Shown: one piece after another, positions 19,491 through 22,349 of the stretch | Position numbering within the stretch: position 1 is the first letter of the stretch | How the letters are laid out: each line of letters opens with the position of its first letter | NCBI RefSeq assembly: GCF_023149135.1 | Contig: NZ_JAIWJX010000002.1 | Location: forward strand, 620,001-684,000 | Direction: 5' to 3' | Source of the DNA: Fictibacillus marinisediminis | GTDB lineage: Bacteria > Bacillota > Bacilli > Bacillales > Fictibacillaceae | DNA: 64,000 nt | The notes under the pieces: generated by a model | What the model was told of the DNA's origin: nothing | Databases searched by the model: none | Seen by the model: the letters and a program-made list of their open reading frames with translations, nothing else | Translations under genes and position numbers: made by a program

Positions 19491-19669
19491 AAATCCAGCG
19501 GCTGTTCCTTACCATTGGACAGGCTATTTAGCAAAAAAAAGCTCCGATTTCCCAAACAACAGCGTTTTTACAAGAAAAACAGAGGGAAATCAGAGCGGAA
19601 AAGACTAATTACTTCCTTTTTAACTAATCAGACGCTAGTCGGGTCTTAACGGACCCTTCAGCATTTCTG

Positions 19670-20311
19670 TCAAAACCTTCCAATATCTTCGGTGTTCATG
19701 GTGAGGCCGGGCATGCCTGGAACCCAGTTTGCCGGGATGCTTGTTTTGGAGTTTTCACCGTATTGGAGGGCTTGAATTAGCCGCAGAATTTCGTATGCAT
19801 TCCGGCCGACATCGGAAGGATAGATGAGTTTGCTGGCAATAAAGCCGTCGGGGCCGACGATGATTGTAGCCCGGACGGAAGCACCGCTTTGGACATCCAG
19901 CACTCTGTAGGCGCGGCTGATGAGATGGTTCCGGTCGCTGACGAGCGGATATTGTACTTTACCAGCGAGAGGAGAAACTTCTTTAAATACTTTATGAGAA
20001 AACACGCTGTCTGTACTGATGCCGAGCACTTCGGTTTTCAACTTCTTGAACTCACCGTATAAAGCGGCGACCGCCGCTAGTTCTGTTGGTCAGACGAAGG
20101 TGAAGTCACTGCCGTAAAAGAATAAAATGACCCACTTGCCGCGGTAATCCTCCAGGCGAACATCCTTGATCTCGCCGTCTTGAATAGAAGGTGCAGTAAA
20201 CACGGGAGCGATATCGCCAAGCCCCGCGCAATAAGGCTGAGGGCTGCACGTGTTGAATTGTTCCACGGATGGTTTTGGATAAGGCTGATTCCCATCATAC
20301 GGCATGCTCAT
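19670..20311 (-). CDS. Peroxiredoxin (AhpC/TSA family) with in-frame UGA at the peroxidatic cysteine; candidate selenoprotein
   Basis: A 213-residue Prx1/AhpC-type peroxiredoxin, reducing peroxides with thiols. ATG 20311 follows AAAGGAGGG. The frame is intact except for UGA at 20090-20092, codon 74, exactly where the family's DFTFVCPTEL motif has its catalytic cysteine (here DFTFV-UGA-PTEL). Conserved sequence continues in frame on both sides (FFYGSDFTFV; GISTDSVFSH; the late PANWVPGMPG). Starting 11 nt after UGA is the stem AGCGGC/GCCGCU with loop GGUC, resembling a bacterial SECIS. The C-terminal resolving cysteine is replaced (SIPANW), while two cysteines sit in the N-terminal extension (NTCSPQPYC). 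Read as Sec, it is a functional selenoperoxiredoxin; otherwise a nonsense mutant. No sel genes are in the window. Confidence 0.85.
20063..20078 (-). promoter_or_regulatory. Candidate bacterial SECIS hairpin
   Basis: On the minus strand, six perfect base pairs (AGCGGC with GCCGCU) enclose the loop GGUC; the loop starts 17 nt after the in-frame UGA. In the E. coli fdhF SECIS the apical loop is also GGUC, about 18 nt after UGA. Repeated Ala codons could produce the stem by chance. Confidence 0.55.
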
Positions 20312-20465
20312 TCCAATCCCTCCTTTCCGTATAGGTGTATGCTGTGTCTATCTATCGTATGAAGGGAAGGAGGAGAAGTGATTTATATCATGGGTATGTA
20401 AAATAGAAAGAAAAAAGGTGAAATTAGGATTATCTAACATTCCGAAAATAAAGCGGGGAATCAGT

Positions 20466-20555
20466 ATGATGAATTTTAAGCAAGATCGGAATACCGCATT
20501 CCCGGACAAACGCGCCTGCAAACCGGGAGCCCTGTTATGGAATCAGGACAAATAG
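20466..20555 (+). CDS. Possible 29-residue small ORF
   Basis: A short frame beginning MMNFKQDRN and containing one cysteine, preceded by GCGGGGAA. It sits between divergent and convergent neighbours and ends just before a strong hairpin. There is no homology I recognise; coding is uncertain. Confidence 0.25.
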   Translation: MMNFKQDRNTAFPDKRACKPGALLWNQDK

Positions 20556-20577
20556 TTTGGCAGACTACGATGTAAAA

Positions 20578-20613
20578 AAGCAACCGGAGCGGTCTCCGGT
20601 TGCTTTTTTTATC
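20578..20613 (-). terminator. Bidirectional terminator after the coat-like gene
   Basis: Ten-bp stem GCAACCGGAG / CTCCGGTTGC flanked by T7 on the plus side and T6 on the minus side. Confidence 0.88.
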
Positions 20614-20875
20614 TGCCTCCACAGCCGCATCCTCCGCCGCCTTGAGGCGGTTTTGTGTACTGCTGAGGGTATGCAGGATTCTGTATAGGGTAGCCTCCGT
20701 AAACACCTTGGCCATAGCCCGGGGCCATACCAGGATAACCTGCTACCGGATATCCGCCCGGGCCGTAAGCTTGGCCAGGATAACCGGGATAGCCTGGCTG
20801 TCCATAGCCCATTCCAGGCTGCATGCCGTACTGCTGCGGATACTGTCCGTACCCGTAAGGATTCATCTGACGCAT
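20609..20875 (-). CDS. Gly/Tyr/Pro-rich coat-like protein
   Basis: An 88-residue low-complexity protein made of GYGQYPQQYG- and GYPG-like repeats ending in GGGGCGCGGR. Such Gly-Tyr-Pro composition with a terminal Gly/Cys cluster is typical of Bacillaceae spore coat or exosporium-type structural proteins. ATG 20875 (MRQMNPYGYG) is preferred over upstream non-ATG starts; the RBS is weak. Coding is supported by composition, frame and a terminator at its end. Function inferred only. Confidence 0.65.
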   Translation of the reverse strand: MRQMNPYGYGQYPQQYGMQPGMGYGQPGYPGYPGQAYGPGGYPVAGYPGMAPGYGQGVYGGYPIQNPAYPQQYTKPPQGGGGCGCGGR

Positions 20876-21039
20876 GAAATCGTTCCAATCTATTTTATAT
20901 TTTATTTCTGTAGTTATAGCATATGCAGGGCTGACGAGAGTGTACAAGATATACAACCTAGTAAAAAGTAATTAATTTTATGTACGGATGAGTAAGCCTG
21001 GAATAATAAAAGCCGGCTGGTTTGTGAAGGAGCCCGAAT

Positions 21040-21746: not shown

Positions 21747-21971
21747 TTAGGCGTTGCCGGCAACGTTCGAATCAACAGCATCTGTATCTAATGTGTTGGT
21801 CGAACTGATAAATGTAACGGTTTGCAGGAAATTGCCTGTATTTCCGCCTCCAGAGCCGCTATACCCTTTGCTTGTGCTTTTAGGGTTAATGACAAGGGTG
21901 TCACCAAAGTTAACTACTCCATCGGCTTGCACAGAGGAAATGGTTACAGGCCCCACGATCAGTGATGGCAA
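21747..21971 (-). CDS. GerPF/GerPA-family spore germination protein
   Basis: A 74-residue protein with the family pattern MPSLIVGPVTISSV, then VNFGDTLVINPKSTSK, YSGSGGGNTG, and a C-terminal DTDAVDSNVAGNA. GerP proteins help germinants reach receptors through the spore coat. Unlike B. subtilis, where gerPF is last in one operon, this gene is divergent from the rest. A perfect sigma-K-type promoter lies upstream. Whether it is gerPF proper or a GerPA-like copy is not decidable by eye. Confidence 0.85.
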   Translation of the reverse strand: MPSLIVGPVTISSVQADGVVNFGDTLVINPKSTSKGYSGSGGGNTGNFLQTVTFISSTNTLDTDAVDSNVAGNA

Positions 21972-22023
21972 GAGAACGAACCTCCCTTTTAGAAGTACCG
22001 TATAGATTGCATGCTGCTCTTAT

Positions 22024-22052
22024 TAATGTATGTGCAAATTCTTCAAAGGGTG
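22024..22052 (-). promoter_or_regulatory. Sigma-K-type promoter of the GerPF-like gene
   Basis: On the minus strand CACC, 16-nt spacer, CATACATTA: an exact match to mACm-N16-CATAnnnTA. Confidence 0.72.
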
Positions 22053-22068
22053 AGCAGATAAGAGGGTG

Positions 22069-22096
22069 AACACCTAGGAAAAAGTGACATATGATA
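22069..22096 (+). promoter_or_regulatory. Sigma-K-type promoter of the gerPA operon
   Basis: AACA, 15-nt spacer, CATATGATA; the -10 fits the sigma-K consensus exactly, with the spacer one base short. It is divergent from the GerPF-like promoter. Confidence 0.62.
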
Positions 22097-22127
22097 TGAG
22101 GAGACTGTTGGCAGGGGGTGGTTTGAA

Positions 22128-22349
22128 TTGCCTGGAATCGTAGGGAGTATTAATATTGCCTCAGTTTCGAGCAGCTCCATTGTCCATATCGGGGATGTTC
22201 AGGCCATCAATCCTATCAGCAATGCGAAGACCTTTGCAGGCGCTGGGTCGTTTAACACGGGCGAGAACATAAGGACGAACACGGGCTACAACCTCACGAA
22301 TACGTACGATATGGATCAGTTCGATAATACGAATATTGCAAATAACTAG
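22128..22349 (+). CDS. gerPA: Spore germination protein GerPA
   Basis: A 73-residue GerPA-type protein: MPGIVGSINIASV, SSIVHIGDVQAINP, a glycine-rich AGAGSFNTGEN turn and a terminal YDMDQFDNTNIANN. It begins at TTG behind AGGGGGTGG. It is first in a plus-strand cluster gerPA-C-D-E-B under a sigma-K-type promoter, acting in the coat of the developing spore to keep it permeable to germinants. Confidence 0.88.
   Translation: MPGIVGSINIASVSSSSIVHIGDVQAINPISNAKTFAGAGSFNTGENIRTNTGYNLTNTYDMDQFDNTNIANN

Follow-up and report, generated by a model that had tools for sequence, protein, structure and literature searches.

A peroxiredoxin gene with an in-frame UGA

The window, that is the whole stretch of 64,000 nucleotides of Fictibacillus marinisediminis DNA that was analysed, carries on its minus strand a reading frame of 213 residues plus stop (20311-19670) which, by direct reading and translation, encodes a peroxiredoxin of the AhpC/Prx1 type (Table 1). 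The frame opens with an ATG at 20311-20309, closes with a TGA at 19672-19670 and contains a further TGA at codon 74, in the context FFYGSDFTFV-U-PTELAAVAALY. The halves on either side of this codon are in the same frame and jointly match the Pfam family AhpC-TSA (PF00578) over residues 32-159 (profile positions 2-122 of 124; 122.5 bits against a gathering score of 26), in agreement with an earlier note on this DNA, which had placed the UGA exactly at the peroxidatic Cys with both flanks in frame. An AlphaFold model of the read-through protein (pLDDT 83.7, pTM 0.83) has as its nearest PDB structures Arabidopsis PrxA (5zte) and Salmonella AhpC (1n8j, TM 0.93 by target), and in this model UGA74 falls in the first helix turn, where PrxA and AhpC carry their peroxidatic Cys. 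An ordinary 2-Cys AhpC, with both cysteines present, is encoded elsewhere in the same genome. The database entries of the relatives hold just the part following the UGA, as fragments of 119-136 amino acids annotated as peroxiredoxin (e.g., in Fictibacillus sp. S7).

Table 1. Features of the candidate selenoprotein locus, in window coordinates.
Feature	Position	Strand	Basis
Predicted Sec-peroxiredoxin gene, UGA in frame at codon 74	19670..20311	-	sequence, translation, Pfam match
Ribosome-binding site AAAGGAGG	20319..20326	-	sequence, just 5' of the ATG
Putative Sec UGA codon, residue 74, peroxidatic position	20090..20092	-	sequence; UGA kept in relatives
Predicted bacterial SECIS hairpin AGCGGC-GGUC-GCCGCU, stem 12-17/22-27 after the UGA	20063..20078	-	sequence, stem pairing in relatives, synonymous-site test
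Apical loop of the predicted SECIS, GGUC (AGUU in 10/56 relatives' genes)	20069..20072	-	sequence, comparison
Ile192, where AhpC has its C-terminal resolving Cys	19736..19738	-	alignment
Gly67, at the Pro position of the PxxxTxxC motif	20111..20113	-	translation, alignment
Cys22, first N-terminal cysteine	20246..20248	-	translation
Cys28, second N-terminal cysteine, candidate resolving residue	20228..20230	-	translation, alignment
Sigma-K-like promoter AC-N16-CATACGATA, 41 nt before the ATG	20353..20379	-	match to a presumed sigma-K consensus

Selenocysteine machinery and conservation of the UGA

A search of the genome (4.57 Mb in four contigs) for the Sec machinery found selA, selB, selD and tRNA-Sec, all clustered within one 18 kb stretch, and nothing in this result speaks against Sec decoding. 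The tRNA-Sec scores 54.9 bits, above the Rfam cut-off, and has the anticodon TCA according to ARAGORN. The selD gene carries its own in-frame UGA at GGUGCK (locus L009, about 12756-11629, minus strand, outside the window), a usual Sec site of SelD, and probably encodes a selenoprotein too.

The UGA at the position of codon 74 is shared by 74 fetched loci, corresponding to 56 distinct coding sequences, with frames intact on both sides in 55. Close relatives have TGA at this codon, not TGC: 13 of the 34 genomes in the family sample match at E<=1e-40 and the codon is UGA in 13/13, while in the class sample it is UGA in all 14 genomes matching at E<=1e-60. At 1e-25, 342 of the 398 class-sample genomes match, mostly through ordinary Cys homologues of at most 48% identity. 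In an order-level sample around Salipaludibacillus, 41 of 299 genomes match at 1e-45, of which 40 have UGA (11 of these 40 known from the stop column of the search output, their loci not having been fetched) and one, G614, has TGT. Among named genomes, the UGA is found in 16 of 18 loci, from Fictibacillus, Salsuginibacillus, Salipaludibacillus, Ammoniphilus, Mesobacillus, Alicyclobacillaceae, Melghirimyces and others, and the remaining two are distant Cys proteins of 36-40% identity. The Melghirimyces gene (L037/L055, one gene) retains UGA and hairpin with a frame that breaks later, by decay or assembly error; it is omitted from the tree, and L105 and L108 were dropped as repeats. Three loci with one TGA each in the class listing and no match to the active-site pattern (L054, L058 and L065) were excluded. 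Two genomes that already hold the main form also have a second, more distant copy whose match contains one TGA (G203:C23:846184-846711, 48% identity; G182:C6:172392-172922, 43%); these loci were not fetched and may be further Sec paralogues.

In the family sample selB is present in 32/34 genomes, and because it is so common there its co-occurrence with the peroxiredoxin (P 0.37) is uninformative, so that the class sample was used: 85 of its 398 genomes have selB above the cut-off, including all 14 with a peroxiredoxin match at E<=1e-60, an overlap with a chance of 1.7e-10 if genomes were independent, which relatives are not. At the order level, selB is above the cut-off in 39 of the 41 genomes with a peroxiredoxin match. 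The two others are G614, the sole Cys form, and G635, which has the UGA form; since the selA of G635 lies 352 bases from a contig end, an assembly gap is the likely explanation for its missing selB. Weak matches of ~400 residues to the selB model, seen in most of the other 40 order-level genomes, are probably EF-Tu.

Genome G614, identified as Alteribacter keqinensis through the identical named protein P0007, offers a natural control. Its gene, the only Cys form found inside the clade, has TGT at the site of codon 74 in an unbroken frame; the genome is without selA and its match to the selB model is weak (5e-55, below the cut-off). The hairpin has decayed, with -3.3 kcal/mol compared to -10.5 in the window and a Val to Met change at the loop codon. 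In the free tree this gene forms a long branch nested among the UGA forms, so that it has the appearance of a Sec-to-Cys reversal following loss of the Sec trait.

The hairpin downstream of the UGA

The hairpin begins 11 nt past the UGA, with 17 nt between UGA and loop, and the stem, loop and distances given in the earlier note are confirmed by direct reading. With numbering from the first base past the UGA, the loop occupies positions 18-21, and the entire predicted SECIS element is encoded by the codons for PTELAAVAA. The bSECIS model described in the available text of a 2026 review calls for G in the first two loop positions, a spacing of 16-37 nt, a stable stem and pairing loop ends (PMC13188914); the window hairpin has every one of these features and no notable difference from that description. 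An Rfam scan of 19600-20600 at E<=1 returned no match.

The concern had been raised that repeated Ala codons could give the hairpin by chance. This holds for four of the six stem pairs (13-26, 14-25, 16-23 and 17-22), which are forced by the codons GCN GCN GTN GCN GCN and prove little, so that the informative sites are the third codon positions; at these free positions, on the other hand, selection is apparent. Pair 15-24 is formed in 56/56 genes by varying bases (G-C in 13, A-U in 34, G-U in 8 and U-A in 1), which 0 of 20000 shuffles match, pair 12-27 is formed in 49/56 genes, with 115 of 20000 shuffles equally good, and the loop ends 18/21 are G..C in 46 genes and A..U in 10, always linked. 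These shuffle tests ignore kinship, and the tree-based independent pairs are too few for significance (for 15-24 a mean of 1.4 agree, 0 disagree and 2.6 are the same; for 18-21 there is one pair). Four-fold-degenerate codons were compared at 30 columns in which at least 50 of the 55 genes share one residue, and synonymous entropy is lowest at the five hairpin codons +9, +6, +7, +8 and +5 (0.57-1.06 bits, the next lowest codon having 1.32; 7e-6 as a random draw; 55 genes). The loop codons are GCG GTC or GCA GTT in 55/55 genes, against 0.119 expected per gene from the genes' own codon usage. The minimum free energy of the hairpin is -7.5 or lower in 55/55 genes (-10.5 kcal/mol in the window), and the stem is contained in the minimum-energy fold of 40 nt in 52/55. 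Judged by these comparative tests, selection on synonymous sites maintains the hairpin, and the synonymous-site test rejects its being a mere by-product of Ala codons as the full answer.

Decoding of the UGA

The Sec genes, the UGA in relatives and the selection on the hairpin together support the proposal of the earlier note that Sec is inserted at codon 74; Sec insertion itself, and likewise peroxidase activity, is what we infer. With a probability of about 95%, the gene encodes a selenoprotein, a peroxiredoxin of the AhpC/Prx1 fold that would use Sec as its peroxidatic residue. The alternative of a normal Cys peroxiredoxin hit by a nonsense mutation or a sequencing error had also been considered, as TGC and TGA differ by one base and the normal 2-Cys AhpC elsewhere in the genome would make a loss tolerable; a pseudogene or error of this kind is refuted by the conservation of the same UGA across independent assemblies, in 56 distinct genes of which 55 have intact flanking frames, and goes against the selection on synonymous sites of the hairpin, which reduces its probability to practically nil. 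The UGA might otherwise terminate a short product, the C-terminal part being made separately by re-initiation, as the annotated downstream fragments could suggest. The break, however, lies exactly at the active site and would leave the catalytic residue in neither half, the hairpin selection and the Sec genes would have no explanation, and the sole Cys genome has an unbroken frame and is without selA, all of which makes separate synthesis very improbable. No more credible is a reading of the UGA as another residue, such as Trp, by reassignment or leaky read-through: the metagenome copies P0002-P0006, P0010 and P0013 are translated with Trp here by their source, but this is the code choice of the gene-caller, UGA serves as a stop in this genome, as at the end of this very gene, and Trp cannot serve as a peroxidatic residue.

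Active site and catalytic cycle

The C-terminal resolving Cys is missing, as had been claimed, the sequence here being KTS-I-PANW where AhpC has GL-C-PANW. It is absent from 55/55 genes of the clade and from 14/14 PrxU-type loci (in L124 a Cys stands one place later), and present in 31/31 Cys homologues; in the set examined, predicted Sec at the peroxidatic place thus accompanies loss of the resolving Cys. The Cys form of Alteribacter is also without it, so that the presumed reversal has not regained this residue. Within the active-site motif, the Pro at -7 is found in 13/55 clade genes and absent in 42/55, compared with 31/31 Cys forms and 13/14 PrxU; the window protein has Gly there, a change that the earlier note had left unmentioned, like the two N-terminal cysteines. 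The Thr at -3 is kept in 53/55 clade genes, with Ser in the other two, and an R[AGTS] motif occurs in 55/55. An N-terminal Cys, 44-60 residues before the Sec position, occurs in 50/55 clade genes, and 5/55 have no Cys between -60 and the C-terminal end, the start on which these N-terminal counts depend being backed by a ribosome-binding site in 43/55 genes.

In the proposed cycle, the hairpin 17 nt downstream would direct SelB with Sec-tRNA(Sec) to read UGA74. Together with the conserved Thr (position -3) and Arg, the selenolate would then reduce the peroxide and become a selenenic acid, which, because the C-terminal resolving Cys is absent, must be reduced in another way. Resolution of the selenenic acid could fall to an N-terminal Cys (here Cys28 or Cys22) within the same decamer or, alternatively, to a thiol acting directly, be it a small molecule or a protein, such as bacillithiol or thioredoxin; in the five relatives without a Cys from -60 to the end, only an external thiol could do so. 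For the clade as a whole, peroxide reduction at Sec followed by resolution through an N-terminal Cys, in members that have one, or directly through bacillithiol or thioredoxin is the likely cycle, both cycle and reductant being inferred.

Relation to PrxU and AhpC

Sec peroxiredoxins occur in some Gram-positive bacteria, as the earlier note had correctly stated, which lowers the novelty of the present one; the first to be described was reportedly PrxU, by Sohling et al. in 2001. The window protein scores below the cut-off both of the PrxU model NF040737 (165.9 bits against 270) and of the AhpC model TIGR03137 (152.5 against 272). It resembles AhpC in fold (1n8j) and in the active-site Thr and Arg, but AhpC has Cys in place of the predicted Sec and retains the resolving Cys. 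In a sample of the clostridial class, 13 of 391 genomes have a match to the PrxU model over its cut-off, each with one UGA. PrxU and the window clade have in common the AhpC/Prx1 fold, a peroxidatic residue that is Sec (as predicted for the window clade), the absence of the C-terminal resolving Cys and a hairpin directly past the UGA. They differ in the residues after Sec (PTEL in the Bacillales clade, ATE in 7/14 PrxU), in the Pro at -7, common in PrxU and infrequent in the Bacillales clade, and in the N-terminal Cys of most Bacillales members.

Whether the clade is a Bacillales branch of clostridial PrxU, with a single origin of Sec, or arose separately is evenly balanced on the present evidence. 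In one PrxU group (L111-L117) the hairpin has an AGUU loop and matches that of the window clade in its place relative to the UGA, both Sec groups are without the C-terminal resolving Cys, and the AU test does not reject a tree joining them (p 0.523; log-likelihood 1.53 higher). The free tree, in contrast, groups PrxU (SH-aLRT 97) with clostridial Cys forms (87) and sets the Bacillales group apart (95), the window protein stays under the PrxU cut-off, and the hairpin of another PrxU group (L118-L123) differs. This second hairpin lies ~7 nt further from the UGA and has a GUA loop, which suggests that the SECIS has moved within PrxU. By model score and in the free tree, the window gene belongs to a separate Bacillales clade of predicted Sec-peroxiredoxins, under the cut-off of the PrxU model.

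Upstream region and a possible link to sporulation

In seven loci of the Fictibacillus group, the sole well-kept far-upstream stretch is CATACGATA (CATATGATA in one), preceded by AC at 16-17 nt. The pattern AC-N16/17-CATANNNTA, which we take to be the sigma-K consensus (no paper giving it was found in the open-access literature), occurs upstream of 14/55 clade genes, against 1/55 on the reverse strand and a mean of 0.5 (highest 2) in shuffled sequences, and in the comparison sets upstream of 0/14 AhpC genes, 0/16 clostridial Cys forms and 1/13 PrxU. Seven of the 14 motif-bearing genes form one clade, and some motifs are at odd distances from the start. A sigma-G-like pattern was found in 0/55 clade upstream regions, and a sigma-E-like pattern, found in 3/55 against a shuffled mean of 0.25, was rejected. 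By eye, the gene adjoins a reading frame for a Gly/Tyr-rich, coat-like protein (20609-20956, minus strand), and small GerP-like proteins are encoded nearby (21747-22349); among the neighbour genes of 14 named loci, also judged by eye, no common neighbourhood is seen outside the Fictibacillus loci.

Given the sigma-K-like motif and the GerP-like and coat-like neighbours, a role of the predicted Sec-peroxiredoxin in sporulation is possible. The fuller proposal, of a mother-cell Sec peroxiredoxin of aerobic spore-formers under sigma-K control, a 1-Sec enzyme without resolving Cys or motif Pro that perhaps takes part in spore-coat maturation, is put forward tentatively and is rather unlikely as a whole. 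In CotE of Clostridioides difficile, a protein of the spore coat, a peroxiredoxin part is combined with a chitinase part. The window protein may likewise be a peroxiredoxin linked to spore formation, a link suggested here by the promoter-like motif only, and its comparison with CotE is at the level of the fold. No paper linking a Sec peroxiredoxin to spores was found in the open-access literature.

Discussion

Two sources treat Sec peroxiredoxins, in their available text, as an established family of selenoproteins (PMC13188914, PMC9312934). Peroxiredoxin selenoproteins have been counted in 78 organisms, which are unnamed in the accessible part of that text (PMC5029168), and three selenoproteins have been counted in Bacillales, again according to an accessible part (PMC1794560). 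As far as these partial texts reach, members of the Bacillales clade may already be among those counted (PMC1794560; PMC5029168). In the open-access literature, no paper was found tying Sec peroxiredoxin or selenocysteine to Fictibacillus.

The gene described here adds a distinct clade of predicted Sec-peroxiredoxins in Bacillales, a group made up largely of aerobic spore-formers, the members of the clade being present in databases as fragments, and with Alteribacter it provides what looks like a natural Sec-to-Cys reversal in which machinery and hairpin have been lost. It makes testable both the recycling of a Sec-peroxiredoxin without a C-terminal resolving residue and a role of selenium in spore formation. 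If the protein were indeed a sporulation selenoprotein under sigma-K, selenium supply would affect spore quality.
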